Shown: one piece after another, positions 12,328 to 46,547 of the stretch
Numbering within the stretch: the first letter of the stretch is position 1
Layout of the letters: each line of letters begins with the position of its first letter
NCBI RefSeq assembly: GCF_029525575.1
Contig: NZ_JAPDIA010000003.1
Span: forward strand, 2,286,214-2,350,213
DNA: 64,000 nucleotides
Source: Cohnella rhizosphaerae
GTDB taxonomy: Bacteria > Bacillota > Bacilli > Paenibacillales > Paenibacillaceae
Reading direction: 5' to 3'
Made by a program: the position numbers and the translations under genes
Notes under the pieces: generated by a model
The model's database searches: none
The model's input: only the letters and a program-made list of their open reading frames with translations
What the model was told of the DNA's origin: nothing

Positions 12328-12709
12328 TAAACTCCGCTCCTGTTGTATAATTTGCAGTCTAGACGGTTATTGCAGCATGACCGGCCTTCCCTAATGACCT
12401 GCGACTTTGGTCATGAAAGCCCTTCAAAAATTGGTTCTAGTTTATAAAACTCCCTCCCTATCCAAAATTTCCACCATTCCTATATCGAACATTAGGAAGA
12501 CGAAAGTAATAGGTTTTCTAAAGAATTGTTTAATTTTTCAACATATTCCTCCCTTTAGCCTATGTAAATTGTTACATAAGTCCTATCCGCCCAATAATAG
12601 CCGGCGGAGCAGGCCTGCCGCATTTGCAGCGACAAGGAATTCGCCTGTTTTTGTCGAATCCTTTTGTCGAATCCAAGTGTCCATAAAGATATCGAAGGAG
12701 GCGAGCGCG
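12328..12709. other. AT-rich divergent intergenic region
   Basis: 382 bp between the divergent chemotaxis-receptor and histidine-kinase genes, clearly more AT-rich than its surroundings from about 12405 to 12600. It contains one strong operator-like palindrome (listed separately) and a direct repeat, TTTTGTCGAATCC, ending just before the kinase ribosome site. No gene is seen. Confidence 0.5.
12561..12578. promoter_or_regulatory. 18-bp operator-like palindrome upstream of the histidine kinase
   Basis: TATGTAAATTGTTACATA has perfect 7-bp arms around a 4-nt centre, in the AT-rich island about 130 bp upstream of the kinase start. Its cognate regulator is unknown. Confidence 0.45.
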
Positions 12710-14542
12710 GTGGATACGAGGCAATGGATGTCGGTGCTGCTGTGTCTCGCGACGGCGCTCATGCTGTTCGTCGCCTGTCTCTCGTACCTGAAACGCCAGC
12801 AGCCGATGGCGCGCACGATGGTCTGGATGATGCTGACTGCTTCATGCTACGCGATGGGGTACACGCTCGAGATCGTGAGCGAGAGCCTGCGCGAGGTGAA
12901 GCTGTCGTATCAGCTGGAATACGTCGGCATCCCGTTCGTGTCGGCCTTCTGGCTGCTGCTCGTGTTCCAATTCACCGGGTTCGCCGCTAAGCGCCGGAGG
13001 CAGGTCGCGATCGGCATCTTCCTCATCCCGACCGTCACCTTCCTGCTGCATCTGACCAACGACTGGCACCATCTCCTCTATCGCGCCTTCGTCCCGAATG
13101 CGGAAGGTCTCGTCCCCGTCTACAACACGATAAAAGGTCCCTGGTACGCGGTCCACGCGATCTACAACTATACGATTCTCCTGTTCGGCATCCTGCTCTT
13201 CCTCCCGATGTATCTCAGAGCCGTTCCGATCGTCCGCAAGCAGATCGTCGCGCTGATCGTGGGCGCGGCCGGTCCGATCCTGTTCAATATCGCCTACATG
13301 TTCAACAAGGAGATCGACTTCACGCCGCTCGGCTTCGCTTTGTCCGGACTGGTGTACGCATGGGGCATCTTCCGCTTCCGGCTGCTGCGGCTGACGCCGC
13401 TCGCCTATGCCAAGATGTTCGATACGATCCGGGACGGCGTCATCCTGCTGGACTACGACAACCAGATCGTGAGCCACAACGACGCGGCGACGGAGGCTTA
13501 TCCCGGCCTGCCGCATGCGGCGAAAGAAGGGCCGATGCCGGCCCGCGCGCTGCTCGCGGAGAGCCCCGAGCTGCTGGACAGATTGACGTCGCCGGCGCAT
13601 CTGGACGAGCGCTTCCCGCTGGCGCGCGCGCTAGGGGAACGGACGCGGCACTATATTTGCAGCATCACGCACATCTACGATGCCGGCACGTCCCCGATCG
13701 GGAAAATGGTCATGCTGAGCGACGTCACGGCGCTCCGCGAGAACGAGGAGCGGCTGAGGGAAAAGTCCGAGCAGTTGACGCAGCTGAACGCCTTCAAGGA
13801 TAAGCTGTTCACGGTGATGGCCCACGACATCCGCGATCCGATCGCGCTGCTCGTCAGCCTGACGGAGATTCTGGAAGCGGAGCCGGCGGAGCAAGGTCAG
13901 GCGAAGGCCGAGGTGCTGCCCGAGATCAAGCGCCAGGTGCGCGGCACCTACCAGCTCGTGGACAACCTGCTCGACTGGTACCGCAGCCAGAACGGCACGA
14001 TCGCCTTCCGCCCGCAAGCGTGGAATCTGCAGCAGGTCGTCCGGCAGGCGCTGTCGCTGGCCGGCGCGAGAGCCGCCGCCAAGCACATTCGCATCGCGGA
14101 GCGGGTCGACGACCGGCTGACCGTGAACGCGGACAAGGAGATGCTCGATCTCATCTTCCGCAACCTGCTGGCGAACGCGATCAAGTACACGGACGTCGGC
14201 GGGCAAATCGCGGTAGGCGCGTCGCTTCGGGAAGGCGAGGTGAGCGTATCCGTGAGCGACGACGGAAGAGGCATCGACGAAGAGACGGCCAAGCTGCTCC
14301 GGCGCGACGAGATGTACTTCAAGGAGCCGGGCTTCGCAAGCGCGGGCGATGGCGGAGAGATGCGGTTCGGGCTCGTGCTCACCCGCGAATTTCTCCGGAT
14401 GCACGGCGGCGGTCTCCGGTTCGAGAGCGAGGCGGGGCGGGGGACGACATTCTGGTTCACGCTGCCGGGCTACGCGGACGGGGATGCCGCGACGGAAAAA
14501 GAGGAATGGGCGGTGAGCGCGTATGAAAGTGATGCTGGTTGA
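12710..14542 (+). CDS. Sensor histidine kinase with N-terminal 7TM region and PAS domain
   Basis: 610 residues. I place the start at GTG 12710 because AAGGAGG (12695-12701) precedes it and the 7TM region begins at once; the frame stays open far upstream without a ribosome site. Seven hydrophobic segments span about residues 6-222 (His-kinase N-terminal 7TM type). A PAS-like domain follows (about 235-330). The HisKA H-box is MAHDIRDP with His372, then the N-box NLLANAIKYTD, G1 DDGRGID and a C-terminal G-box RGTTFWFTLP. Asp replaces Glu after the His. It overlaps the response-regulator gene by 20 nt, so the two form a translationally coupled pair. The ligand is unknown. Confidence 0.93.
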   Translation: MDTRQWMSVLLCLATALMLFVACLSYLKRQQPMARTMVWMMLTASCYAMGYTLEIVSESLREVKLSYQLEYVGIPFVSAFWLLLVFQFTGFAAKRRRQVAIGIFLIPTVTFLLHLTNDWHHLLYRAFVPNAEGLVPVYNTIKGPWYAVHAIYNYTILLFGILLFLPMYLRAVPIVRKQIVALIVGAAGPILFNIAYMFNKEIDFTPLGFALSGLVYAWGIFRFRLLRLTPLAYAKMFDTIRDGVILLDYDNQIVSHNDAATEAYPGLPHAAKEGPMPARALLAESPELLDRLTSPAHLDERFPLARALGERTRHYICSITHIYDAGTSPIGKMVMLSDVTALRENEERLREKSEQLTQLNAFKDKLFTVMAHDIRDPIALLVSLTEILEAEPAEQGQAKAEVLPEIKRQVRGTYQLVDNLLDWYRSQNGTIAFRPQAWNLQQVVRQALSLAGARAAAKHIRIAERVDDRLTVNADKEMLDLIFRNLLANAIKYTDVGGQIAVGASLREGEVSVSVSDDGRGIDEETAKLLRRDEMYFKEPGFASAGDGGEMRFGLVLTREFLRMHGGGLRFESEAGRGTTFWFTLPGYADGDAATEKEEWAVSAYESDAG

Positions 14543-15673
14543 CGACGAGCCGGTCATGCATCTGATCATGAGGAAAATGCTGGAGAAATACGACGGGCTG
14601 GAGGTCGTCGGCACGTTCTCGGACGCCCCGTCCGCGACCGCCTTCCTGAAGGAGCGGGAAGACGTCGATCTGGCGTTCGTCGACATCTCCATGCCCGGCG
14701 GCAGCGGCCTGTCCTTCGCCGCGCAGATGGACCGCGAAAGCGGCGCGCCGCGGATCGTGTTCGTCACGTCGCACAAGGACTATGCCGTGGACGCGTTCGA
14801 GCTGTCCGCGCTCGATTATCTGGTCAAGCCGGTGACGCAGGAGCGGCTCGAGCGGACGGTCCACCGCGCGCTGGAGAGCCGCAAGGCGCTGGGACCCGCA
14901 AAGACGGCGGACGCGCCCGCGGAGATCCGGGACAGGGTGACCGTATCGGCGCTCGGGGATTTTGCCGTGCAGAGCGAACGGGGCAGGGTGAAGTGGATGT
15001 CGGGCAAGAGCGCCGAATTGTTCGCCTACCTCCTGCTGAGCCGGGGAAGAGAATCTCCCGCCACAGGCTGATCGCGGAGATTTTCGCGGGCATGACGGTG
15101 TTGAACGCGGAGAAATATCTGAACACGGCGGTCTACCAGCTGCGCAAGTCGCTGGAGCCCCTTGGCCTGCGCGAGGCGGTCCGCTCGGAAAACGACGGGT
15201 ACGTCCTGGAGCTGGACGAAGCGGTCGTCGACTTCGAGACGTTCGAACGGGAGACGGCCAGGCTCGGCAGGCTCCATGCCGGCAACGCGGCGGAAGCGCT
15301 GGATGTCGAGCGGCTGTACGCGGGCGACTTGTTCGGCGCCAAGGCTTACGTCTGGGCGGTCCGGCATACGGAGCGGCTCGCGGACCGCTATGCGGCCTTC
15401 GTGCGGGCGGCTGCTGCCGCGCTGCTCGAGACGGGGGACACGGAGGCCGCCGGCAAGCTGCTGCACAAGCTGCACGTTCGCAACCCATGGGACGAGGCCG
15501 CCGTCGCCCTGCTCATGCGCAAGCATGCGATGGTGCGGGACAAGAAGGGACTGACCGCGCAGTATACCGACTACGTGAAGCTGCTGAGCCGCGAGCTCGG
15601 CATCAAGCCGTCCAAGGAGCTGCTGCTGCTCTACGATTCGCTCGTCAGCGGGCTTTCGGAGGGCGCCAACTAA
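14523..15673 (+). CDS. Response regulator: CheY receiver, winged helix and BTAD (SARP-like) domains (one frameshift)
   Basis: About 383 residues repaired. The receiver (1-120) has the acidic pair DDE, phospho-acceptor Asp54 in FVDISMPGG and VKPV. After a linker comes an OmpR/SARP-type DNA-binding domain (about 140-230: VTVSALGDFAV, TAVYQLRKSLEPLGL), then an all-alpha bacterial transcriptional activation domain (LYAGDLF, ELGIKPSKELLLLYDSL). The frame breaks at the G4 run 15044-15047; adding one G restores LLLSRGKRISRHRLIAEIF. It is the partner of the overlapping 7TM kinase. The giant surface-protein gene starts 190 bp downstream on the same strand and is a candidate target. Confidence 0.88.
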
Positions 15674-15764: not shown

Positions 15765-15864
15765 CGGGTCCCGTAGACTTAGCCCTAGCATGCTCGCCAT
15801 CCGTCCGCAGTCAGGACGATCCTGATCCGGCGCGGCGGCAAGCGAGGGAAGGGGTTAACGTACT

Positions 15865-18800
15865 GTGGGGAATAGAGGAAGGAATTGGCGCGGCGTCGCG
15901 CTCGCCTGGCTGCTCGTCGCAAGCATGCTGGGCAGCTTGATTTTGCCGAACTTTAGCGGAGGCAAGGCCGCTGCCGCAGCGCCGTTGGCGGCGGGCTTCG
16001 GGACGCCCGGCATCGGGGCGTTGTCTGCCGCTGCCGCTTCCGCCGACACGTCGGGACACTGGGCCGGCGAGACGATGGCGGAGTGGCGGCGCTTGGGGCT
16101 GATCGACGGCTTCCCGGACGGCAGCCTGCGTCCGGATCAGGTCATCAGCCGGATCGAGTTCGTGGCGCTGGCGAACCGGCTGTTCGCCTACGGGGGGAAC
16201 CGCGAGCCTGCAGTTCGCCGACGTGCCGGGCAATGCCTGGTTCGCGTCCCAGGTGCAGGCGGCCGTGGCGGCGGGCTATATTAACGGCTTCCCGGACGGG
16301 ACGTTCAAGCCGAGCCGGCAGCTCACCCGCGCGGAGGCGGCCGTCATGCTCGCGAAGCTCGTGCCGGCAGTCGAACGCGACGGCGCGAATGCGCTCGGCG
16401 CGTTCGGGGACCGGGACGATGTGCCGGCTTATGCCCGGGCTTCGCTGGGCGCGCTCGTCGAAGGCGGCATCGTCCAAGGCTTCGCGGACGGGACGGTCCG
16501 TCCCGGAGGCAAGCTGACGCGCGCGGAGGCCGTCGTGCTGCTGGACCAGATCCGCACGCAGTCCGTCGTCGCCGCGAACGGGGGCATCGTGCCCGCCGCG
16601 CTGCGCTTGACGGAGGCGGGCGTATATGGGCCGGCATCAGGCACTGCCGCGGTCGGCGGGGACGTCGTCATCGATGCGCCGGGCATCACGCTGCGCAACG
16701 TGACGGTGCGCGGGAACCTGACGATCGGCGCGGCGGTCGGCGAAGGGGATGTCTACTTGAAGGGCGTCGCCGTAGTCGGGAGCACGAATCTGCAGGGCGG
16801 CGGGGCGCACAGCGTACATATCGACGACTCGCGGCTCGGGACGGTCGTCGTCGAGAAGAAGGACGGCCGGATCCGGATCGTCGTCGGCGGCACGACGGTC
16901 ATCGAGCGGATGGACGTGCGGACGGACGCGAACATCGAGTCGGCCGGCACGGCGGAGAGCGCCGGGATCGCCGGCATCTCCATTACGGCGGCCGGCGAGG
17001 TCGAGCTGTCGGGAAGCTTCGGCAAGGTCGAAGTCGCCGGCGACGTGTTGCTGACCGTCGGCGCCGGGACGATCGGCGAGCTGCAGGTTGCGGATGGCGT
17101 CAAGTCCGCGGCCATCAAACTGGGCGACGGCGTATCGGTGGAGCGCGCGGAGCTGCACGGCGGCGCGCAGTTCACGGGCGCGGGGACCATCGGCCATGCG
17201 CTGGTAGACGCGGCGGACGTGCGCTTCGAGACGAAGCCCGCGACCGTGGAAACGACCGAGCGCGCCGTCGCGGCCGGAGGGTCGGGCGGCACTGGCGGCA
17301 CTGGCGGCACTGGCGGAAATGGCGGCGTGCAGCCGACGACTGCGCCGACGACGATGCCGACGAGTACGCCGACGCCGACGCCGCCGGTCGATACGACGAT
17401 AACGGTCGTCCCGACGCTTGTTCAAGCGCGAGTGTCCAGTCTCAAGGTGGCGCTCGACCCGGCCGTGCCGGGTCTGACTGCCGCGAACTTTGCCCTGAAG
17501 GACGCCGCGGGCGGCAATGTCCCCGTGACGTACGCGGCAACGCTTGACGGCGGCGCGACATACGCTTTGGCTGCCGCGTTGTCAGAAGGCGCGACGTATA
17601 CGCTGACGATCGCGAAGACGGGTTATGGCTTCGGCTCGGGCCTCGCCGTCGCGGTTCAGGTCACCCAGCCGGCGGACGTCGACGTCGCTGCGTCCCTTGT
17701 CGGCGCGGCTGCGCCGTCCGGCTTCACGTTGGCGCTGAGCGGACCGGTCGCCGGCCTGACGGCGGCCGATCTCGCGCTGACGCACGGCGGCGAGCCGGTT
17801 GACATCGCGTCCGCGGACAGCGCCGACGGCGGCGCCACGTATGCGGTCGTCGCGGCGCTGTCCGCGGGCGAACGCTACCTGCTGACGATCGTCAAGCCCG
17901 GCTATCGCTTCGGCGGCGCGCTGACGATCGACGTGCTGCCGGAGGGAACCGAGGAGATCGCCGTCACGCTGGCGCCGGGCGGTACGGTCGGCGGCGCGGG
18001 ATTGTCCGTCGGCTTGAGCGTGCCGATTCCGGATCTGTCGGCCGGGCAGTTCCAGTTGACGCACGGTTCAGACAGCGTGGCCGTGACTAGCGCCGTCAGC
18101 GAAGACGGCGGGGCGACGTACGCGATCGCGGCTTCGCTGACCGAAGGCGAGACGTACCGGCTGACGATCGTCAAGCCGGGCTACGGCTTCGGCAGCGGCT
18201 TGACCTTCACGGTGCCTGCAGGTCTTGTGGTCGTCGCGCCCAGCGTCAGTCGTCTTACTTCCTCCGGTTTCGTTTTGGAGCTGGACAAGCCGGTGCCGGA
18301 GCTTGAGATGGACAGCTTCACGATTAAAGGCAGCGACGAGACGACTGTCGGCATCAACATGCTGGAGACCGAAGCCACGCACAAGATCGTCGAGGTGTAC
18401 GCGCCGCTCGCGCTGGGCGACACGTACACGGTGTCGCTGAACAAGCCGGGCTATACCTTTGACGAACCGCTGACGCTGTCCGTCAAGGCGACCGAATCGC
18501 CTTCTACGATCGAGTGGGTGTCGTATCAGGGCTTCTCCATCCGCTTCGGCTCGCCGATCGCGGCGTTGACCGCCGACCGGATCTCGCTGACCGGGGCGTC
18601 GGGCGCGGCAATCGCCGTTCAGGGCGTACAGCTGGCGGCGGACGGCAGGTCCGCCGTCGTGACGGCCGAGCTGCCCGCCGCCGGCGACTACGGGTATCGC
18701 ATCGCCTTTGCGGACCTCGTGTTCTCGGGAGAGCTGCATGTACCTGAGACGATCGCCGTCAGTCGGTACACGACCTTCGAGTCGGTCAATTACGTGGATC

Positions 18801-21800
18801 AGGGCTTGCGCGTGCATTTCAGCGTTCCGGTCCAGGGGCTGCCTCCCGAGGCGTTCGCGCTGACGCACCGGGACGGCACGCCGTATGCGCTCGCGTCGGC
18901 GACGACGGACGACGGAGGCCGGAGCTACCTGCTGGTACCGGAACAAATGACGTACAGCGACTATGCGCTGGACGTACGGCATGCGGGCTACGACTTCGGC
19001 GGCACGCTGCAAATCATCCGTCCGACGATTAACAACTGGGGCGGGTTGGCCGACCTGGCCGCGTTTATCGGACTTAATCCGTCCGTGCCGACGACCATGG
19101 ACAACTATCGGATTACGGACGCATCGGGCGCTTCGGTCGCGATCAAGGCGCTCATCCCGATGCAGAACGCGTTCATCGCCACTTTTGACGGCCTGCGGGG
19201 CCGCGGCTACGATGTGACCGTCGTCAAGGAAGGCTACGACTTCGGCGGTCCGCACCGGATCAACGTGTACGCACGCAATACGATCGTCGATCCTTCCAGG
19301 ACCGGGTTCACGCTGGCGCTCAATCCGCCCGCGGCGATCGACACTGCGCACGCCTTTGCGCTGTACAGGGCGAAAGATGGCGCAGTCGTCGGCAGCGCGC
19401 TGCGGATCGATTCCGTCACGACAACGGACAACGGGGCGAGCTATCGGTTCGCGGCCGCGCTGACGCCCGGAGACTACAAGCTGTCGGTGGACGCGGACAT
19501 TGATGAAGATTCGTTCTACTTCACGGTACCGGTCGTCGCTACCATAACGGTCGATCAAATTACCGCTAGCGGCCTGACCGTGAAACTAAGCGAAGCACTG
19601 AGCGGTCTGACCGCCGGCAGCTTCGGACTTGTCCAGGCGGATACGGGTATGCCGGTTGCGATCGATTCGGCGACGACGTCCGATCAAGGCCGCACTTATC
19701 GGCTGTCGGCCGAGCTGTCCGGGGGGCAGTTACACGCTGCGGCTGTACGGCCATCTTCCGGACGCGGGCGTCCCGTTCCAGGTTGCTCCTACGGTGGATG
19801 CGGGCGTCCCGGCCGTCGACCGCATCGGGGCGGACGGCTTCGACCTGACGTTCGACAGCGCCGTGCCGGGCTTGCTGCCGGCCAATCTCGAGCTGCGCGA
19901 CGCGAGCGGCAATCGCCTGAGCGGCGTGACGCTGTCCACCGCGAACGGCGGGGCCAGCTACCGCGTCCATGTCGGCCTGACCAGCGGACGGGACTACAAG
20001 CTGACGCTGAGCAAGGACTTTTTCCGCTTCGCCTCGCCGGTCACCTTCCACGTCGGCTACTTCCTGTCTGCGACGATCGTGCAGACGACGCTGGACGGAC
20101 GCATCGAGGTCCGCTTCTCGTCCGCGCTTCCGCAGGCGCAGTACGGCGGCGTGTTCGCCCGGGACGAAGCGGGGGAACGATTATCATCCGTACGAATATG
20201 CCATGGCCGGCGGCGGTACCGTCTATCGGCTGAGGCTCGTGACTTTCTCGCCTGCCCATACGTACAGCATCGCGCTGAATCCGGCGGCGGTACCGGACCT
20301 CGCGGATTATGCGCTAACCTCGCCGACGTTCGGGTTCCCGACGGAGATCTCTGCCGCGGACGGCACGGCGACGGGCCTCAAGGTCCGATTCGCCACGCCC
20401 GTCGACGGACTGACCGGCGCCGGCTTCATCGTCCGCGACCCTTCCGGCGCGGCGATCCCCGTGACCGGCGCGTCTACCGGGGACGGCGGCGCCAGCTATG
20501 CGCTGACGGCCGCGCTGACGCCCGGGAAGTTTTACACGGTACAGTACAAATCGCCGGCGTCGTATCAACAGACGCAGCCGGTCTCGTTCGCCGTGCGCAA
20601 GTCGCTGGCCCCGACGATCAAAAACGTGACATCGACGGGCTTCACGCTTCAATTCGGCGAGAAGGTCGCGGGTCTCAAGGGTTCCGAAGTCGTCCTGCGC
20701 GATCCAAGCGGCGGCGTGCTCGGCACGCACCTGTACAGCTTCTCGACGGCGGATCAGGGCCTGAGCTATCAGTTCCGTTACGCGGTCGGCGCGGGTGCCG
20801 TCGAGCCGGGCGCAGGATACACGCTCGACGTGCAGCGCGACGAATTCGCGCTCGACGCGCCGCTCGCGTTCGATATTCCGATTCCGGCGAACGTCCTCGT
20901 CTCGCTGACGACTAGCACGGATCTGCTGCTGGATATCGGCAGCTACGGAGGCCGGGAGCTCGGCCTCGTCAAGAGCAGCTTCGACCTGCGGGACGGCAAG
21001 GGACGTCCGGTATCGTTCGCGATGGCCGATCTCGGCGGCGGCTCTTACAAGCTGACCGGCGCCTTCGACGCGCAAGAGACATACACGCTGACCGTCTCCA
21101 AGCCGGGCTACGACTTCGGCAAGCCGCTGACGTTCGGCCTTAGCATCGCGGTGGGCATCACGACGATGTTCCAGAACCAGCAGGGCTTCAGGCTGTTCCT
21201 CAGCCCTCCCGTGGCCGACTTGGGCGTCTCCGAGATCGTGATCAAGGACGGCGGCGGCCAGACGACGGCCGTGACGTCGACAACCACCGCCGATGGCGGC
21301 GCCACCTATCAGGTGTCCGCGAAGCTGACGGCCGGCAAGACCTATACCGTCACGATCGTCAAACCGAATTATACGGTGAAGTTCACGATTCCGTTCAGCC
21401 TGAATCGGCGTGCGGCGTCGGTGGATATGGCGTCGGTTGGCGGCTTCCGGCTGAACTTCGACCGTGCGGTGAACTGGAGCAGCGAGTTCAAGCTCGTCGT
21501 CATGGACGAGCAGGGCAATGTTGTCAAGACGAGCGGCATCGTGTCCAAAGATAACGGGCTGAGCTACGAGATCGATGCGGCGCTCGCGCCGGACGTCAAC
21601 TACACGGTCACGCTCACCAAGCCGGGCGACGACTACGGGCCGGGCATTCCGCTGATCGTCCGGAAGGCGCAGACGACCTTCGACGGCCTGGCGCCGGGCG
21701 GCAGCCGCACTTTCGGCTTGACGCTCGATCCGGCGATTCCGGACATGCGTCCCGGGGAATTCGTGCTGCGGCGCGCTTCCGACGGACGGCGTCTACCGGT

Positions 21801-24800
21801 GCTGTCGGCCGAATCGACGGACGGCGGCACGACGTACGCGCTGTCCGCCGACTTCCTTCAATCGGAGAGCTACACGATTATTCCGGAAAAAGACGGCTAC
21901 GCATTCGGCGATCCGATCCCGTTCGACGTGCCGATCTTCGAGCGGACGGCCGTGACCGGCGCGAGTCCGCGCGAGATCCGGATCGGCTTCAACCCCGCCG
22001 TGCCGGGTCTCGACGAGAGCGGCTTCGCGCTGCGCAGCGGGGCAGGTACGACGCTGCCCGTCGGTTCGGTCTCGACCGACGACGGCGGAGCGACTTATCG
22101 GATCGTCGCCGACTATGCGGGCGGGGAGACGTATACGGTGTCGGTCGCCAAGGCCGGCTACGAATTCGGCGAACCGCTCGTCGCGGATATTCCCGACGCC
22201 GTGACGGCCGCGATCGCGGCGATCTCCGAGACGGGTCTCACCGTGTCGCTCGCTCCTGCCGTAGGCGGACTGTCCGCTTCCAGCTTCTCGCTGCGGGATG
22301 CGTCCGGACATGCGGTCGCGCTGACCGGCGCGACGACGGCGAACGGCGGCGGCACCTATGTGCTGAGTGCGTCACTGACGGGCGGCACCGGCTATACGCT
22401 GACCATCGGGCTGGCCGGCTACGACTTCGGCACTCCGATGACGCTGAACGTACCGATCCCGGTAACCGCCGCGTATTCGGACGTTGGGACGTCCGGGCTG
22501 ACGATCCGCCTGGCCGCTCCGGTGTCAGGGCTTACGGCCGCGAACGTCACGCTGCTCGATCAGGACGGCAAGCCGATCCCGATCGATGCCATGACGACGT
22601 CCGACGGCGGCGCCGCCTACGCGGTGGAGGCTACGTTCGAGGCGCAGCGGCGCTATACGCTGCGTCTATCCAAAGCGGGCTACGACTTCGGCGCCGATGC
22701 AGGCTTCGTCGTGCCGCTTGCCGTACAGACGGAAGTGCCGGCGCTGCTGACGACGGGCTTCGCGATCAAGCTGAACCTGGCGGTGCCCGGATTGACCGCA
22801 GGCAATGTGGCGCTTGCGGACAGCGCCGGAAAAGCAGTCGCCATCACCGCCTGGACCGCGTCCGAAGACGGGCTGTCCTATCAAGCTTCCGCCGAGCTGG
22901 CTGCGCATGAAACGTACGCGCTGCAACTCGTCGCGAACGGCTACGACTTCGGCCCGGCCGTCCGGCGCGAGGCGCGGCCGGCGCTTGCGCTCTCGGCGAG
23001 CGGCGTTTCCGACGTCGCCTTCGTCCTCGAGCTCGGCGACGCCGTGCCGAATCTGAAGCCGGACGACGTCTATCTGACGGATGCGTCCGGTACGCGGATC
23101 AAGCTGAATGCGGTCTCGTTCTTCGATTTATCTGGCGCGGCCAACGCCGGACGCCGGTACCAGGTCGTCTATTCATTGACGAGAGGCGAGACGTACACGA
23201 TCGACGTCCGCGATCCGGCGCATCCGACGGCCGCACCGCTGCAGGTTATTTTGCCGATCCAGGCTCAGGTCCAGGTGTCCGGCATCTCGAAGAAAGGCTT
23301 CACGCTCGCCTTTAACAAAGCGGTTCAAGGACTGAGCGCGGACGAGATCGAGCTGCTGAACGAAGACGGAGAGCGGATCGCCGTCGGCAGCGCGGTCGCG
23401 GGAGAGACGGCGGCGAAGTATGCGGTCGACGTCAAGCTGACGGAGGGACGCACGTATACGCTCAAGCTGAACAAGAAGGGCTATAGCTTCGGCTCGGCCG
23501 GCGGGACGCAGGTACAGGTGCCGATCGCCGTGACGGCTACCGTCTTGAATCCGAACGAATCGGGCTTCACGATCGTGTTGTCCGAGCCGGTGCCGGATCT
23601 GGATATCAAGCTGTTCAAGCCAGGCTTCGCCAGCGCCTATTACGATCTGACGATTGCGACGCCGGATGGAGGCCGGACTTATCAGGTGGGCGTATCGTGG
23701 CCAAGCGACTATCCGCTGACGCTCGCGCTGTCGAAGCCGGGATACGCGCTCGGCGCCGACCAGACGGTGCAATACGCGAAGAAGCCGCCCGTCATGCTCC
23801 GCGCGGTATCGGGCGCGGACAGCGCGAGCGTGCTGCTGACGTTCGACGCGCCGCTCGTGTCGATGGAGACGAGTGCCGGATTTACGCTGAAAATAGGCGA
23901 CCAGTGGCAAAGCGGGGTTAAGTCCTACTTTATCAACGCGACGACGGTCAAGCTGACCTGGAGCGGATCGCTCCTCCGTTCGACCGACGAACTGGCCGTC
24001 GCCTATACCGGCGTGAACCGGGTAAAAGGCGTGAACGGCGCGTTCCTGGCGCAATTCGCCGCTACGCCGGCGCTGAATGCCTCGAGCGAGCTCGGCCTCG
24101 TGCAGAGCTACGTCGACAGCCGGAATGCAGATACGCCGGCGGCGATGCTGCACGCGCAGTTCGGACGCTCGGCGCTCGAGACCGCGAAGCTGCTGCGGGA
24201 GGGCGGGTTCTCCGCCGCGCTATACGCGGCCGCCGTCGGCAAAGCGTATCAGCTGGACTTTGCGGCCGTGCTCGGACTGCTGTACCAGATGGACACGGAT
24301 GCGTCCACGGCATTCGGCGCCGTCCGGGCGACGCGGTATTTGCCGAACGCGCCGGACACGTGGATCGCGGGCTTCCTTGCCGCCGGCTATGCGCCGGAGG
24401 AATTCGCGGGCAGCTTCCGCGACGCGGGTTATCAGACGCGGGATATCGTGCGCGGGCTCAAACTGGGAGGCGTGTCCGCAAAGACGGCGGCGCTGACGAT
24501 GAACCGCGCGCTCCATGAAACGGGCGACAGCGCGGCCGCCCAGCTGCGCATCCTGTACGGAGCTGCGGACACCGCGGGCGCCGTGCAGAGCGCGTACGGT
24601 CTGACGGATGCCGGGACGGTGCAGGCGCTGGCGGCCGGCGGGATGTCAGCGGCCGATGCAGCCGCTGCGAGCAAGACGCTGTTCTCCGCCGATGCGGCGA
24701 CCGCGGCCGGACTGCTGAGCGGCGCCGGCTACCCGGCGAAGGCCATCGGCGCAGCCGTCCGGCAGCTCTATACGTTCGCGGACGCGGCAGAGGCCGTCCG

Positions 24801-27800
24801 GGCGCTCGGGCAAGCGGGTCTGGCCGGGGCAGAGCTGTATGCCGCAGCCGGCGCGATCTTCTCGCCGGCGGACGCGGCTTCGGCCATGCTGGGCCAAGGG
24901 ATGTCAGCGTTCGACGTGGCGGACGCGATCCGGGCGGCCGGCGGCGGCGCGGCGACGGCAGTCGCCGCTCTGCTGAGCCGCGGCGGGGATCCTGAAGCGA
25001 TCGCCCGCCAGGTGATGAGCGCATGGGGCACCTCGCTGACGCTGCGGGAGACGGCAAGCCAGTTCGTGCAGGGCGGCTTCAGCAAGATCCAGGCGGCGGC
25101 GACGCTGCGCACCGTCTACGGGGCGAATACGGCGTCGGCCTACGACGCGCTCGAGCCGATGTTCCATCCGTGGGGCTTCGATGCCAAGGGGCTGTTCACG
25201 ACGCTGCTCCAAGGCGGGTATGATCCGGTAGAGGTGGCCGATTACTTCCTCGCGCACGTCTATGCCGGCATCGCGCCCGTGCTGGAAAACTTCCTGGAGG
25301 ATGCGCGCTACCCGCTCCCCGCGTCGCTGACGTACGTGCACGATGCGGTGACGAAGGGCGGCAAGGCTTATGCGATGAAGGACGCGGTCCGGGACATGTT
25401 CGCCACCGGGGCTTTCTACTCCGCGGAAGAGGCGCTCGCCGCGCTGCGCGCCGCCTATGCGAGCGATGCCGCCGAGCCGGCCAATCCGGCGAACCTGGCG
25501 GCGGGCATGAGCGAACGGTATTCGTTCTACGATTATCAAAGGGCGCTGATCTCGCAGTTCGGCCAGACGATGGCGATGTGGATCGATCAGCAGACGGCCG
25601 ATTGCGCTTGCGACGCAGCCAAGCTGGCCAAGGATGCGAAGTTCCTGTTCGGCGCCTCGTCCGTCGGCGACATCACGGCGACGATGAGCGCGACCGGCAA
25701 GTTCACGCTGCAGCAGATCATCGAGGGCACGATCTCGCTGTACCCCGGCGCTTCGCGGGAATCGCAGATGTCCGCGCTCACCGCCGTGCTGAGCGGTACC
25801 GGGTATCCGGTCGGCGAGCTCGCAGCCGTATATGACAGCGAGGGCTGGGACTGGATCAAAGCGTTCAGCCGGTACGGCATCGCGGCCAAGGAAGCGGCTT
25901 TGTATTTGCAGTCCAAGGGGCAGACCGAAGACCAGATCATCGTTCGTCTGCGCCCGTATCCGCTCAAGGATATCGCGCTCGTGCTGCGCGAGCAGTACGG
26001 ACTGGACGAGTCGGGCGCGATTGCGGCGCTGCTGTCCGCGCAGTTCTACGATCAGGACGAGATCGGATCGGCGGTCGCCTGGGCGTTCGGCGGCAACCCG
26101 GTCGCGCTGTGGGTGAAGACGCTGAAGGCGCAAGGCGCGTCGGCGGGCTCGGTCATCAGCCTTCTGGCCTCCCGCTATACGGAATACCGGGATCCGAGCG
26201 TAGCGGGTCCGGCGCTGATCCGCGGCGGCTACGGCATGGAAGAGGTCATTCAGGCGCTGATCGCCCGTTCGAGCAATCCGAACCTGCAAAATACGATCGC
26301 CGTGCTCAAATCGCTGTACGCGCAAGACCAGGTGACGGTCGCGCAGCTGCTGGCCGCATCCGGCAGCGCTGCGCCGGCCGACGGCATCGTCTTCCTTAAA
26401 AACGCGAAGTATTCGCAAGCGGAGATCGCCCGCAGCCTGAAATCCTATTACGGGCTGGAATCGGGCGAAGCGGCCAGGCTGCTCGCCGACGCTTACCCGT
26501 CCGAGCTGACGAAGGTCATTCAGACGGTGGCGGGCATTTACGGGGACAGCAAGGCGGCTGTCGCGGCCGCCGCGCTTGCGGCCGAGGGCATTACCACGCT
26601 GGAGGCGGCGATTCCGTACTTGCGGGATGCCGGCTTCGGGTTGCAGGATATCGCCGCCATCGCCCGCGATCGCTTCGGCGCGCCGCTCGGCCGGACGGCG
26701 CAAGCCCTGCTGGCGCACAGCGGCGAACGCGACAGCGTCGTGCTCTATGCGGCGGCGGGCGTCTACGGCCAGACGGTCGAGCATGCGATCCGCGAGCTGC
26801 TGACGGCGAACGGACAAGCGTCCTTCGCCGACGCGATCGCCTATATTTACGCGCAGCAGCGGTTCGATCTGCGGACGGGCGCGATGCTGGCGAAGGAAGA
26901 ATACGGTCTTTCGTCGGGACAAGCGCTGCAGGCTTTCCGCGCGTTCGGCATGTATAAGGACAAGGACGTCGTCGCCACGGTGGCGGGCGTGTACGGCATG
27001 TCCGGCGACGCGAGCGTCGTCGATTCGCTCGAAGCGAGCGGCATGCATACGTTGACCGACGCGGTATCGTACCTGCTGCGTATGAACTTCGATCTCCGGA
27101 GCATCGTGCGCGTCGGCCGCGAGCACTACGGACTGACGCAGGGCCAGACGGCGTCGGCCCTCGACGCATCGGGCTTCTTCGACGGCAGCGGCAGCGAAGT
27201 CGTCGCCGCGATCGCCTCCGTATACGGACAGACGATGAGCCAGGCGCTGGTGGCCGCGCTGGACGGGCTGGGGGCAACGACGTTCGAAGCCGCCATTCCG
27301 GATCTGCGCGCTGAGAACCTGACGCTGGACGACCTCGTGCTGGCCGCGCGCGATCACTACAGGCTGACCGCCGGTCAGGCGCTTGGCGCGTTGCTGCCGA
27401 TCGCCGCTTACCAGACCGGCGCGGTGACGGCAGCCGTCCTGGAGTATTACGGCAAGCCGTTCGCGGAGAGCGCAGGAGACCTGCTGCGCGGCGCCGGCGC
27501 CGCCAAGCTGGAGGACGGCGCGCCGATCCTGCGGCAGATGGGCTATTCGTTAAAGGAAATCGTCGCGGCATCGCGGTCGTACTACGGCTTGACCGCCGAG
27601 CAGACCGCCGACGGGCTCGCGGCGCTCGACCTCGACAGCGCGTCCCTGATCGCGGCGGCCGTAGCGGACGTCTATGCGCCGGCTTCGGCCGCCGATGCGG
27701 ACGCGGTGCTTGCCGGCGGCGAAGAGATCGCGGATCCCGCTGCCGCCGCAAGGCTCCTATGGCAAGCGGGCATTCCGCTGGGCGACATCGCCGGCGCGCT

Positions 27801-29889
27801 CAGCCGTCATTACAGTCTGACTGCCGGCGAGATTGCCGCCGTTCTGGCAGGCACGGAGCTGTTCGATCCGGCTACGATCGTCTATGTGCTGGTCGCAGGA
27901 TCGGAAGGTTTGACTGGTGCCGGCGTGGCTGCGGTGCTGAGCGCGGTAGGCGTCGGTTCCGCATCGGACGCCGCGGGCATGCTGCGGCAGGCCGGCTATG
28001 GCGCGACGGACATCGCGTCCGCGCTCCTGAACGGCTATGCCCAATCGGAGACGAATACGAAGGCCATCCTGTCCGGACTTGGCGTCTACACGGCGCAAAC
28101 GATCGAAGCCGCCGTGAATCAGGCGCGCGGACAAGGACCGACGTCGGCCGACCTGCTGTCGGACGTCCTCGAGCTGTACGGGGTGACGACGCCGGAAGGC
28201 GCGGTGGCTTTCCTGAAGCAAACGAACAATTCGCTCGCCGACATCGCGCTGCAGCTCAAGAACCGCTATCAGATAGACGCGGCGCGCGCGACCGAGCTGC
28301 TCAAGCCTTACGCCCAGGCCGGAGACATCGCGCTGGCGATCGCCGCCGTCTACTATGCCGATACGAATCTGTCGTATCTGAAGCAGATGGTGCCGGCTGC
28401 CTATGCGGGCAATCCGACCAATTTGGCGGGCTATATGTCCGGGAAGTTCCCGCTGTCCGACATCGTGCTCGCGCTCAAGCTGCTGTTCGGTCTCGACGCG
28501 CTCGGCGCCAAGGATGCGATGATCAACGTGGACGCTTCGCCGGATCAGATCAACGGCAAGATCGCGGAAGTGTACGGCGTCGATCCGGTGCTCGCGCTGC
28601 TGACCCGGATGAAGGCCCAGGGAGCCAGCGCAAGCGATATCGCGGTCGAGATGCAGCGCAACGGCAAGTTGGAGGTTAGCGACCGTTACTTGGTCGATAC
28701 GCTTGCCGCTCTCGGTTACGACGGGGCGACGATTCTGAATTTGCGATATCGATCCTTCAACCGCGTGTTAAAAAACGAAGGCACCATTGAGGGACAGGCC
28801 GCGCTGCTCATCCGGTTCGGCGTCAACACCCCGGCGGCGATGGCGGACTTCCTGATGTACAAGAGCTACGGCGGCAGCTCCGCGGGCGTGCTCGCGATGA
28901 TGCAGATCATGCGTGCGGGCCTGCCGAACGCCTCCATCGGCGATATCGCGCTGGCGGTCGCGGGCTACGGCTTCGGCCGGCTGCCGATCGAGAACGCGAT
29001 GCTGGCGATGGACGAGCTGAGCGGCAGCATCGCGGAGGAAGCCATTCTGAAGCGGCTGGGCTACAGCGCCTATGACGCCGCAGGCTTCGTAAGCCGCATG
29101 TTCGACAGCCGGAACGATCGTTTACGGCTGCTTGCCCTCAACGGCTACAAGCTCACGGACTACTTGAAGTATGTGTATTACGGCGCGGAGTCCGTCGCTT
29201 ATCTGAAGCAGACCGGGCTTGGCGCCACGGAGATCGCGGTCGCGGTCGTCCAGTCGGGCGCGTCGAATAACTATGCGATCATCGCGCAGGACCTGAAGCA
29301 AGGCGGCTTCACGGATCTGGACGAGATCGTGAAGGCGGTGTACAAGGCGGGACTTCGTCCCGAATGGATCCCCGACTATCTGTACGGCATGGCGCCGCTG
29401 CAGGATATCGCCCAAGCGATGGTCGACACCGGCGAGATCTCCCTCACCGTCATCGTCAAGGCGTTGCAGATCGCGGAGGCGAACAACAAGCAAATCTACG
29501 ACATCGTCAAGGCCATCAGCAAAAACGAGCAGGCCGCATTCCTCGGCGAGCTGTCCGCGGTCGAACGCCGCGCGCTCGGCGACGACGAGGCCGCGATTAT
29601 CGTGACGCTGGGCACGCTGCGCGGCGCCGGGTTCGGCGCGCACGAATCGGCCGACCTGCTCACGAACGACATGGGCGACTGGATGAAGGCGACGGTGATG
29701 CTCATCCTGTCGGGCTACGAGTGGGACGATGCGCTCGGGGCGGTGTGGGACGAGTACCGCGCGGCGATCGGCGTGTTCATCCTGCAGTCGATGATGGGCA
29801 GCACGATCTCGAACTTCATGAAGGATTTCCAGAATTACTGGAGAATCGGCAAGATTGTCATGAAAATCGTAAAACGCGAATTGTCCTGA
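15865..29889 (+). CDS. Giant SLH-anchored surface protein with beta-domain array and alpha-helical solenoid (three frameshifts)
   Basis: About 4,670 residues repaired. GTG start at 15865 after AAGGGG; signal-peptide-like N-terminus. Three SLH domains (about 16048-16190, 16207-16365, 16396-16560; GFPDG and TRAEA motifs) bind secondary cell-wall polymer. A beta-rich stalk (16600-17270) and a Gly/Thr/Pro linker (17271-17400) follow. Next come about 24 beta domains of ~92 residues (17440-24060) with signature TxDGGATY...LTxGETYTLTIxKxGYDFG. Last is an Ala-rich helical region (24090-29889) of ~75-residue units: LxDIxxxARxxYGLTxxQAxxAL, then VVAxVAxVYGQ. No enzyme motif seen. Frames break at G6 16192-16197 (add one), G6 19721-19726 and G5 20171-20175 (remove one), each restoring an SLH or beta domain. 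The function is probably adhesive or structural. Confidence 0.85.
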
Positions 29890-29958: not shown

Positions 29959-30799
29959 TCAATCGAATTTCGACGGAGGCACATGATAGTACTTCTTGAA
30001 CGCCTTCGAAAAGGTGAAGGGATCGGGGTAGCCGAGGAAGCCGGAGATTTGCTGGACCGTGTATTTTTTTTCGTACAGGTAGTCGCGCGCCCGGTTCATT
30101 TTAATCTGATAGATATACTGCCCCGGCGTGATGCCGACGGCTTTTTTGAAGTAGGAAATGAAATATTTCTCGGAGATGCCGGCAAGGGGAGCCAGCTCGC
30201 CGATTCGGACCGATTCGTGCAGATGATCGTCAATGTACCGGAAGATCGGCTGGAGGACGTCCAGATCCCGGCCCGATCTCCTCGGCGAGGTCCCGATCAG
30301 AAAGGCGCCGTGATACTGCCCTTGGGCGTGGAGCTCGATGATCTTGGCGATGACGGCCATGAGGCAAGCTTTTAAATATAGACGGTTCCCCGGCTTGCCG
30401 TCCGAACGCTCCGATTGCGCGTAGGCCTTGACGAACAGCTCGACATTTTCCCGTATCAAATCGCCGCCGACAATGCCCGATAGCGGAAAGTCGCCCAAAA
30501 TGCGCTGCTGCTCGCCGATGCCGTAGTCGAAATGGACGTATATAAACCTGCAGCCCCCCCTCTTCGCAGGAAGCGATGTACGGGATGCGGGGATAAAAGA
30601 AAACGACGTCGCCCGGACGGGCCGTATGCGAGGTGCCGCCGATGCTAAGCTTCACGGTGCCGGATTGAATGAACCAAATATCGTAATCGGCATGCGCTTT
30701 ATGCTCGATCCAGTCCCCTTCCGGCGCGATCGCCCAGCAGGACTTCAGGCGGAGCGCGATGAACTCGGAGAGCTCGTTAAAAATGTCCATATCCGGCAT
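29959..30799 (-). CDS. AraC-family regulator with cupin sensor domain (one frameshift)
   Basis: About 280 residues repaired. Start ATG at 30799 follows GGGGGAA. The N-terminal cupin/AraC-binding domain (HADYDIWFIQSGTVKLSIGG, ARPGDVVFFYP) should sense a sugar. The C-terminal double helix-turn-helix reads LAPLAGISEKYFISYFKKAVGITPGQYI ... VQQISGFLGYPDPFTFSKAFKKYYHVPPSKF. The frame breaks at a C7 run (30554-30560); removing one base restores EEGGCRFIYVHFDYGIGEQQ. It is divergent from the GH4 glycosidase gene, so it likely activates that gene in response to its substrate. Confidence 0.85.
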
Positions 30800-30881
30800 G
30801 TACGATTCCCCCACTCGTAGACATTGCGGGCTTTTATCCGATTATATCATTGAATTCGCAGGCTTCAGAAATTCGTACTTT

Positions 30882-30910
30882 TTGACATGGATGCAAAACC
30901 GCCGCATATT
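30882..30910 (+). promoter_or_regulatory. Promoter of the GH4 gene
   Basis: TTGACA (30882-30887) and CATATT (30905-30910) are spaced by 17 nt. A second candidate -10, TATAAT, lies at 30931-30936. Both fall in the 167-bp AraC-GH4 divergent region. Confidence 0.5.
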
Positions 30911-30966
30911 CCGCTTTCCGGCCATTCTCCTATAATGAGGCTATCAACTACTTAGGAGGTTCGATC

Positions 30967-32355
30967 GTGAGCGACTCGAACGCGTTTCAACCGAAGGTCG
31001 TCGTGCTCGGCGCGGGCAGCCTGTTTTTCGGCCGTCAGTCGATTTGGCAGATGGTTCATTCCCCTTATTTGAACAACGGGACGCTTGCCTTGGTCGACAC
31101 GGACGAAGACAGGCTGGCTAAAATGGTGAACCTGGCCAAGGCGGTTGCCAAGGAGAATGGCGTCCCGCTGAAGGTGGAAGGTTCAACGAACCGGAGAGAT
31201 GTGCTGAAGGACGCCGATTTTGTCGTGCTCAGTTTTGCGGAGGATACGGTCAAATACCGGGGCATCGACTGCCAGGTTTCGTTGAAATACGGGATTCGCA
31301 TGTGCTCGGGCGATACGATCGGACCGGGCGGCATCTTCAGGGCCATGAGGGAGATGCCGGTTATCCTCGCATGCGCCAGGGACGTCGAAGAGCTGTGTCC
31401 CGACGCCTGGGTCATCAACTATATCAATCCGTCGACCGTCCATGGGATCGCGCTGAGCCGCTACGCGCCGAAGCTGAAGTCGTTCGCGCTGTGCGACGGC
31501 CACCATATGCCGCACATCAAAGCGAATTATGCCGTCAGGGCCGGCATTATCGCGGATCGGAGCGCATTCGACGCGGATCTCGATCGGCGATTCGACTTCC
31601 GGGTGGCCGGCGTCAATCATTTTACCTGGCTGCTGAAGGCGGAGTACGATGGAGCGGACGTCGCTCCCAAGATCGCCGAGGCGATGAGAATAGCGGCCGC
31701 GACGGAGACCGACGGCGGAGATACGGGTGCCAAAGCGCGCTTCAACGATTCGATTACCTATCAGCTGTACGATATATTCGGCTATATCCCGACTTGCACG
31801 GCGCACACCAAAGAATACGTCCGGTATTGGCAGGGGCTGGGGAAGACGAAGGACGCGATCCCGCCGCTGTCGATCTGGGAGACGGACGAGCGGTACAAGC
31901 GCCACGAAGAGATGTGGGGCCAAGTGGACGGCTTCCTGTCCGGCGCGCTGCCGATCTCGGACTATATGCGGTCGTTCGGCCCCGACCATGCGACGGATAT
32001 CATCGAGAATATGGTCGGCAATCTGGGCAAGCGCTTCTATATCAACACGCTGAACAACGGAGCGGTGTCCAACATGAACGACGACGCGTTCCTGGAGCTG
32101 CTGAGCGAGGTGAGCATGGAAGGGATCAAGCCGCTTCCCGCAGGGGAGATGCCGAGAGGCATTCGAGGCATGCAGGAGCTCGTGCTGGACACGCACGAGC
32201 TTACCGCGGAGGCGGTCGCCGAACGGAGCTTCGTCAAGCTGCGCAGGGCGATGATGACCGATCCGCTCGTGAATTCGATCCATGACGCGGACCTGATCAT
32301 CAAGGAGCTGCTCGAGCAGGAAAAAGATGTCCTCCCGCCATACTGGTACGAATAG
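30967..32355 (+). CDS. GH4 family NAD-dependent alpha-galactosidase / alpha-glucosidase
   Basis: 462 residues, intact; GTG start after TAGGAGG. Glycoside hydrolase family 4 uses NAD and Mn2+ in an oxidation-elimination mechanism. Visible features: Rossmann start VVVLGAGSLFFGRQSIWQM, INYINPSTV, the metal-site Cys in ALCDGHH and the metal-site His in AGVNHFTW. The CDGHH form resembles alpha-galactosidase or alpha-glucosidase branches (MelA/AglA) rather than the 6-phospho-beta-glucosidases, but exact specificity cannot be assigned by eye. No PTS gene is adjacent, which favours an unphosphorylated substrate. It is divergent from an AraC regulator and stands alone. Confidence 0.9.
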   Translation: MSDSNAFQPKVVVLGAGSLFFGRQSIWQMVHSPYLNNGTLALVDTDEDRLAKMVNLAKAVAKENGVPLKVEGSTNRRDVLKDADFVVLSFAEDTVKYRGIDCQVSLKYGIRMCSGDTIGPGGIFRAMREMPVILACARDVEELCPDAWVINYINPSTVHGIALSRYAPKLKSFALCDGHHMPHIKANYAVRAGIIADRSAFDADLDRRFDFRVAGVNHFTWLLKAEYDGADVAPKIAEAMRIAAATETDGGDTGAKARFNDSITYQLYDIFGYIPTCTAHTKEYVRYWQGLGKTKDAIPPLSIWETDERYKRHEEMWGQVDGFLSGALPISDYMRSFGPDHATDIIENMVGNLGKRFYINTLNNGAVSNMNDDAFLELLSEVSMEGIKPLPAGEMPRGIRGMQELVLDTHELTAEAVAERSFVKLRRAMMTDPLVNSIHDADLIIKELLEQEKDVLPPYWYE

Positions 32356-45905: not shown

Positions 45906-46063
45906 CTAGATTCGTTCTTGCTAGAAATCCCCCAATCGATTAAACCAATCAGCCTGGTTCGGATAATTCAGCGTAATCGTACCCGACAACATTCAAGTGA
46001 AGTAGAAAACGAAAAAAATATAGGCATAGTCCACAATAATCCACGCGGGAGCGATGGGGAAAC

Positions 46064-46127
46064 GATGAAAAACGCATTGAAAAAGAAGTGGCTGCGGATC
46101 TTTTCTTGTCCGCGCCAGGTGTCCGGG
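46064..46127 (+). pseudogene. Relic of the 5' end of the downstream ABC binding-protein gene
   Basis: ATGAAAAACGCATTGAAAAA at 46064 and its leader (about 45945-46063, including CATAGTCCACAATAATCCAC) match the start and leader of the intact binding-protein gene at 50356. Similarity ends after about 40 coding bases, where the sequence passes directly into the 51-bp array. This marks the junction of a tandem duplication that copied only the first few codons. Confidence 0.75.
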
Positions 46128-46470
46128 GCTGAAGAGCGCAATGTACGGTCGTAGGGCAGTAGTTGGGCGGTGTCCGAAGCCGAAGGGTGCAAAGTACTGT
46201 CGCAGGGCAGCAGTTGGACGGTGTCCGGGGCTGAAGGGCGCAAAGTACGGTCGTAGGGCAGTAGTTGGTCGGTGTCCGCGGCTGAAGGGTGCAAAGTACG
46301 GTCGTAGGGCAGTAGTTGGGCGGTGTCCGGGGCTGAAGGGCGCAAAGTACGGTCGTAGGGCAGTAGTTGGGCGGTGTCCGGGGCTGAAGGGCGCAAAGTA
46401 CGGTCGTAGGGCAGTAGTTGGGCGGTGTCCGAAGCCGAAGGGCGCAAAGTACTGTCGCAGGGCAGCAGAA
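46118..46470. repeat. 51-bp minisatellite array 2
   Basis: Same 51-bp unit as array 1, at 46138, 46189, 46240, 46291, 46342, 46393 and a partial copy at 46444, all exactly 51 bp apart. It sits between the relic of the binding-protein gene and the terminator of the second SLH gene. Confidence 0.9.
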
Positions 46471-46490
46471 GTTTAAACATCGTTCAAATA

Positions 46491-46532
46491 AAAACGGGAT
46501 TAGGCAGGAACAAACCTGCCTAATCCCGTTTT
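46491..46532 (-). terminator. Strong bidirectional terminator of SLH gene 2
   Basis: Perfect 18-bp stem (46491-46508 with 46515-46532, loop AACAAA), identical to the terminator at 40336-40377 and 15 nt after the minus-strand stop. Confidence 0.9.
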
Positions 46533-46547
46533 CAATTAAAGGCGCAG

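Follow-up and report, generated by a model that had tools for sequence, protein, structure and literature searches.

A nine-unit array of predicted five-helix, 75-residue repeats in the helical region of a giant SLH protein of Cohnella rhizosphaerae

The DNA analysed here, referred to as the window, is a 64,000-nucleotide stretch of the Cohnella rhizosphaerae genome (NCBI RefSeq assembly GCF_029525575.1, contig NZ_JAPDIA010000003.1, positions 2,286,214 to 2,350,213 of the forward strand) that carries the gene for a giant protein with N-terminal SLH repeats, a row of immunoglobulin-like (Ig-like) domains and a C-terminal region predicted to be alpha-helical. The helical region comprises the last 1,938 residues of the open frame, starting at window position 24073, and within it lies a regular array of nine consecutive units of about 75 residues. 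A histidine kinase with a seven-transmembrane (7TM) region and a response regulator with a BTAD domain are encoded directly upstream of the giant gene.

An earlier note, made from the DNA letters alone, had described a helical region of about 1,900 residues built throughout of 75-residue repeats. The length of the region held, but the repeat was found to occupy roughly one third of it: self-comparison of a 24-sequence profile placed the regular array at helical residues ~763 to 1444 (window 26359-28404, ~680 amino acids), with self-matches at offsets of 75, 151, 227, 303 and onward among the matches listed. Eight profile windows taken from the array each had 8 to 10 off-diagonal partners at an HHalign probability above 80%, and all but three of these partners lay at multiples of ~75 residues; ten column-shuffled alignments gave no off-diagonal partner above 80% (best probability 1.1%). 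The 75-residue repeat is far beyond chance. The two alternating half-motifs that the earlier note had read from the letters, YGLTxxQA and VYGQ, are both present and do alternate, and the best-kept positions of the unit are G2 (87%), A9 (83%), L13 (84%), K28 (87%), Y31 (80%), L42 (87%), Y61 (94%) and L73 (80%). Outside the array, a second and weaker rhythm near 28.6 residues was detected at helical residues ~77-320 (window ~24301-25032; offsets 29, 57, 86, 114, 143 and 171 at probabilities of ~50-90%, among the matches listed), and helical residues ~380-570 together with most of 1520-1938 had few internal matches among those listed, with single ones reaching ~84%.

A structure model of units 1-4 (pLDDT, the per-residue confidence score, 93.1; pTM, the overall fold score, 0.78) placed 20 helices in 304 residues, that is, five short helices per 75-residue unit, so the two-helix hairpin rhythm of HEAT or TALE type that had been proposed for the repeat is not supported. 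The longer model of helical residues 770-1938 was likewise all-helical (pLDDT 78.3, pTM 0.37; pLDDT below 50 over the last 35 residues), and helical residues 1-769 are called helical as well from their sequence. The genes and features of the locus are as follows.

12407..14542, + strand: histidine kinase with an N-terminal 7TM region (HisKA_7TM, HisKA, HATPase_c; Pfam)
14523..15673, + strand: response regulator with a C-terminal BTAD domain, in two frames, 14523-15071 and 14993-15673 (open reading frames (ORFs), Pfam)
15865..16281, + strand: giant gene, frame-0 piece, with a probable GTG start, a putative signal peptide and the first SLH repeat (sequence; start and signal peptide by eye)
16223..20233, + strand: giant gene, frame-1 piece, with SLH repeats, a linker and the first part of the Ig-like stalk (SLH by Pfam, orthologue comparison)
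20341..23757, + strand: last 13 Ig-like stalk domains, in the same frame as the helical region (Big_5 by Pfam)
24073..26358, + strand: N-terminal helical part, residues 1-762 (profile self-comparison)
25603..25611, + strand: codons of a CxC motif, helical residues 511-513 (main-type alignment)
26359..26583, + strand: 75-residue unit 1 (units 1-4: unit scan, shuffle control, structure model)
26584..26808, + strand: unit 2
26809..27036, + strand: unit 3
27037..27270, + strand: unit 4
27271..27492, + strand: unit 5 (units 5-8: self-comparison, unit scan, shuffle control)
27493..27720, + strand: unit 6
27721..27945, + strand: unit 7
27946..28179, + strand: unit 8
28180..28404, + strand: unit 9, end approximate (self-comparison, unit scan)
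28405..29886, + strand: C-terminal helical part, followed by the stop codon at 29887-29889 (self-comparison, structure model)

The SLH repeats were recognised above the Pfam cut-off both in the window fragment (2 stretches, E = 1e-20) and in the intact 96%-identical relative L023 (3 stretches, E = 2.9e-31). Ig-like domains numbered 24 in the 88%-identical orthologue L024 and 23 to 25 across the twelve main-type sequences listed, in agreement with the ~24 upstream beta domains reported earlier; a segment within 16223..20233 resembles a beta-solenoid. A helical tandem-repeat module does, as had been claimed, sit behind ~24 beta domains on a protein with cell-wall-anchoring domains. In the N-terminal helical part, helical residues 511 and 513 were cysteine in all 24 main-type sequences, and the CxC motif occurred in none of the 10 sequences of other types that were checked. 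Other cysteines past residue 60 numbered 0 to 2 in 12 full-length proteins, which have the motif or were listed alongside those that do, with the exception of L025, in which three precede the likely start. A disulfide, metal or redox role for the CxC motif would be speculation.

The helical query found the region in 12 of 60 relatives (E <= 1e-5, the window genome counted), all of the same genus. Among 392 genomes of the order, 23 had a match to the helical profile, as did 2 of 299 from the class, both from one and the same family; of 299 from the phylum, only the window's own was detected by the unit profile. All named carriers belong to Cohnella or Paenibacillus and contribute 11 loci in 10 strains. 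Nine consecutive full units were present in 18 of 19 distinct main-type sequences, and a second copy in C. fermenti (L031/L047) has eleven. The helical region measured 1,938-1,961 amino acids in 11 of 12 sequences, at identities down to ~36% (L047 has 2,096; the count covers the window and the named loci and leaves out 12 rows trimmed to 1,955). Its length is thus fixed within the main type, and from one type to another it changes by approximately whole units. A skip in the profile match from position 856 to ~1307-1309, equivalent to about six units, was seen in three genomes. A three-unit type (L032, L093 and L094) has ~3,600-4,400 codons (L093 is cut by its contig), three consecutive units and no CxC. 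A short type (L033-L036, L095 and L096) of ~2,000 amino acids has an SLH anchor, one or two Ig-like domains (checked in L033 and L095), a helical region of ~1,290 amino acids (L033), no CxC, and only one to three isolated unit stretches above 15 bits; no unit was found in L097 or L098 by the unit scan. The C. rhizosphaerae genome itself carries, on contig C9 (1922000-1940000), a paralogue (L037) encoding a shorter, divergent helical SLH protein, split into frames of 1,404 and 660 codons.

The stalk and the helical region have been exchanged as an allele cassette behind a constant anchor, as is seen in Cohnella sp. OV330 (L029/L043). Around the giant gene, OV330 closely resembles the window, with identities of 91-93% for the regulator pieces, 93% for the downstream family 4 glycosyl hydrolase and 94% for the main piece of the kinase (616 amino acids; another piece of 88 amino acids is 65% identical). 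Within the giant protein, residues 101-400 of OV330 are 80-90% identical to the window's close relatives L023, L024 and L025. Over the remaining 4,300 residues, identity is 30-56% to these three and reaches 49-80% when the comparison is with C. thailandensis and C. fermenti (L027, L028). Trees followed the same division. OV330 grouped with the window's relatives in the anchor tree, with which the regulator tree (15 rows) agreed, and with C. thailandensis, C. fermenti and G293 in the tree built from residues 3301-4210, the part containing the array. In approximately unbiased (AU) tests the opposite groupings were rejected, at p = 4e-65 for the array (on a quick tree) and at p = 6e-5 for the anchor; the tests were run on 16 rows with L031 and the window left out, and the p values are descriptive, the groups having been picked after the identities were seen.

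Relatives of the kinase and regulator flank the giant gene in 9 of the 12 named loci (window counted), lying upstream, downstream or on either side; in L041 (Paenibacillus paeoniae) the kinase is on one side and the regulator on the other. The regulator adjoins the giant gene in 14 of the 16 order-sample genomes with a full-length copy, the window again counted; G015, G018 and G026 belong to both this sample and the named loci. Because the pair swaps sides yet stays adjacent, its position suggests a functional link to the giant gene. Of 14 regulator neighbourhoods examined that lack the helical gene, 5 had another large SLH or GLUG ORF within ~3 kb. A giant ORF is directly adjacent in L088 (SLH and GLUG), L089 (SLH by tblastn only) and L090 (GLUG; no SLH was seen in this ORF, which is incomplete at the end of the stretch), and those of L088 and L090 carry GLUG, DUF5018 and cadherin-like domains, so large surface proteins more broadly may be under the control of such pairs. 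An SLH ORF lies within ~3 kb in L080 (Pfam) and L091 (tblastn). In L079 an SLH match was found at a distance of ~6 kb; tests of the large ORFs of L079 and L092 showed a kinase-type and a heparinase-type protein.

Downstream of the giant gene, window positions 29959-32355 hold an AraC-type regulator gene (minus strand) and then the family 4 glycosyl hydrolase gene, which among the compared loci were seen only in L038, L039 and L043 and were not found in the 2.6 kb downstream of the gene in L023. Two more matches to the SLH region of the giant protein lie on the minus strand, at 40606-40908 (36% over 102 amino acids), within a 1,820-residue ORF at 40393-45855, and at 46777-47064 (34% over 97 amino acids), in or beside an ORF at 45949-46956.

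We put at about even the chances that the helical region forms the distal end of a regulated, fibrillar, adhesin-like giant surface protein. The three N-terminal SLH repeats would hold the protein to the cell wall, the ~24 Ig-like domains would serve as a stalk, and the ~1,940-residue, mostly or wholly helical region would be the tip that the stalk carries outward. Within this tip the nine five-helix units would act as a scaffold, fixed in length in the main type and differing in unit number in others, and the helical segments flanking the array, one of them with the invariant CxC, would be the likely contact or active parts. The 7TM kinase and the BTAD regulator would probably switch the giant gene on upon an outside signal, and the replacement of stalk and tip as an allele cassette would be expected for a part that meets variable partners. 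The role in surface display, adhesion or a matrix suggested in the earlier note fits this architecture. A bolder version seems to us unlikely. In it the array would be an unnamed extracellular modular tip that contacts polymers, every unit touching a single step along a linear ligand (a glycan or extracellular DNA, for example). Reach or avidity would be set by the number of units, which is 3, 9 or 11 in the types observed, the CxC would act as a redox or metal switch, and strains would swap stalk and tip, with a dedicated sensor pair in control.

Several observations weigh against the adhesin-like reading. No adhesin domain was recognised in the tip by Pfam and NCBIfam scans, and units 5-9 were less confident in the long structure model (ten-residue means 48-85). 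The window copy of the giant gene is interrupted, and an intact product cannot be claimed in this assembly. As to regulation, the pair does not adjoin the gene in L038, L040 or L047, nor does the regulator adjoin it in G018 or G026, from which L038 and L040 come; a regulator match (E <= 1e-20) was obtained in 109 of 392 genomes, as against 23 of 392 for any helical match, and 9 of the 14 regulator neighbourhoods lacking the helical gene had no large SLH or GLUG ORF within ~3 kb.

The best-surviving alternative, which we regard as possible though clearly less probable, is that the giant protein is a surface matrix or coat component for collective behaviour, its tips packing mutually or on cell-surface polymers and enveloping clusters of cells with no outside target. 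A fixed tip length would suit such packing, and there are precedents in the bacterial group: SlhA is needed for swarming and biofilm formation in Paenibacillus alvei (PMC3776848), and extracellular CmoA, a different protein of 1,064 amino acids with vWFA and IPT/TIG domains, forms an envelope around moving cell clusters in a Paenibacillus (PMC5072692). The exchange of the whole stalk and tip, however, is more in keeping with a recognition part than with a lattice part, and a further point against a coat is that the helical region is present in no more than 23 of the 392 order-sample genomes.

The frame changes in the window copy raise the question of whether the array is the relic of a decaying pseudogene, a reading that we think improbable. 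The earlier note had treated the gene as one giant SLH protein, which is true of the relatives, but the window's own gene changes frame twice, near 16.2 kb and again between ~19.8 and 20.2 kb, so that the 3' end of the ORF at 16223..20233 lies past a frame change; the paralogue on contig C9 is likewise split. The first piece (open frame 15859-16281) matches all 11 named orthologous loci. The helical frame itself (20011-29886, + strand) is open across 3,292 codons. The frame is unbroken in relatives at 96%, 88% and 86% identity: seven same-genus orthologues (L023-L029) have one open frame of 4,633-4,761 codons from stop to stop, as do 15 other order-sample genomes with a full-length helical region (4,632-4,796 codons). 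Sequencing indels are a likelier cause of the frame changes than many independent pseudogenes, because neighbouring genes are split too, namely the response regulator (14523-15673), which in relatives is a single open frame of ~385 or more codons, and the AraC-type gene (29959-30814), and because genome completeness is 91.5%, as against ~99% in most relatives. The window frames were analysed as they stand, with no mending or joining.

The remark that the repeat was not recognised as a named family was borne out for the window, whose helical part had no Pfam or NCBIfam match above the curated cut-off (weak matches: SCO5918_fam, E = 0.013; DUF7626, E = 0.042; HTH_38, E = 0.4), and needs qualifying for a few relatives, which match small Pfam families. 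In a scan of 14 aligned helical regions (E <= 0.01), the window region matched only DUF7626 (E = 0.0043); RuvA_C (best E = 2.7e-7), RepB_primase_C (4.8e-7) and DUF4287 (4.5e-5) each appeared in two of the 14 and UBA in one (5e-4), alongside other scattered matches, the window's region being among none of those named. Among 54 single units scanned at E <= 0.1, no family was matched by more than two (best E = 0.0033), and neither RuvA_C nor UBA was listed. RuvA_C and UBA match single short motifs in relatives, not the whole 75-residue unit, and we read the scattered matches as short helix motifs common to small helical domains; a distant link to such motifs is possible. HEAT/ARM-type families were listed neither for the 14 full helical rows nor for the 54 unit rows at these thresholds, which leaves a distant relation possible.

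In searches of PDB sequences, neither the full-length helical query nor either of two long profiles gave anything below E = 0.03, and with the unit profile the only sequences below E = 0.05 were two entries of the TALE-like protein BurrH, 4cj9 (49.6 bits, E = 3.5e-12) and 4cja (49.5 bits, E = 4e-12). These scores might suggest that the array is an extracellular TALE-like relative that binds extracellular DNA or another polymer, each unit taking one step, which we judge very unlikely. The score of 49.6 bits adds up 20 tiny stretches, all around a single LxxxGFSxxDI-like motif; taken singly, the strongest stretch reaches 7.6 bits (E = 46), and the significance is inflated because the score sums over near-identical repeats. 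TALE-like repeats have two helices in 33-34 residues, whereas the model of the giant-protein unit has five in 75; what is shared is a short GFSxxDI-like helix-start motif, and we treat the match as motif resemblance. BurrH was not among the 50 structural rows listed, which does not by itself exclude a shared fold. Paenibacillus and Cohnella do not appear in the main text of a TALE-inspired repeat screen (PMC5472282).

The helix count of the 75-residue unit does fit the annexins. Annexins have five helices per repeat of ~70 amino acids. Annexin A8 was only a weak, non-significant profile match (E = 0.24), and annexins were not among the structural rows listed, which does not by itself exclude them. 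The best structural rows listed, which bear on a possible shared fold with (L)WY effector modules, include the oomycete effectors 9j5r, 5gnc (PSR2), 9rdc and 9ria (AVRcap1b) and 3rmr (ATR1), at 6-10% identity, with Z scores within the tool's common range for helical repeats and tied with unrelated rows; these proteins come from other organisms and another cellular setting.

Least credible of all is a toxin stick, polymorphic or contact-dependent, whose C-terminal warhead can be exchanged. A giant surface protein showing allele exchange might recall such a system, but the exchange spans the whole stalk and tip instead of being confined to a short C-terminal domain, invariant columns persist through the last 500 residues of the aligned orthologues, no toxin family was matched in the window protein (Pfam, NCBIfam), and no small downstream gene was shared among the matches listed.

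For the fibrillar, adhesin-like reading, published systems provide partial parallels. Fibrillar adhesins (PMC8286594) have an anchor, a long stalk of tandem beta domains and a large terminal region, which here, by contrast, consists of an array of helical repeats in which no adhesive domain was recognised. The nearest published parallel is Giant1-3 of Apilactobacillus kunkeei (PMC12863079), likened here by description only: these very large extracellular proteins have predicted long alpha-helical repeat regions, and recombination of the genes is reported, but their helical repeats form the rod, a beta-solenoid is N-terminal, and the word SLH is absent from the main text. SlhA (PMC3776848) shares SLH anchoring and the bacterial group but has 1,335 amino acids and C-terminal SLH motifs. 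No paper describing the giant helical SLH protein was found by a literature search, bioRxiv being outside its reach.

Giant surface proteins with beta-domain stalks are already familiar. What stands out in this one is that over one third of a ~4,700-residue protein is taken up by a helical region whose unnamed repeat has a fixed unit number, combined with an SLH anchor, an adjacent candidate sensor pair and cassette exchange behind a constant anchor. If the array is stiff, the five-helix unit could be usable for protein design. The genes, the unit borders and the matched alleles (OV330 versus its close relatives) make questions of display, regulation and ligand testable in these environmental bacteria.

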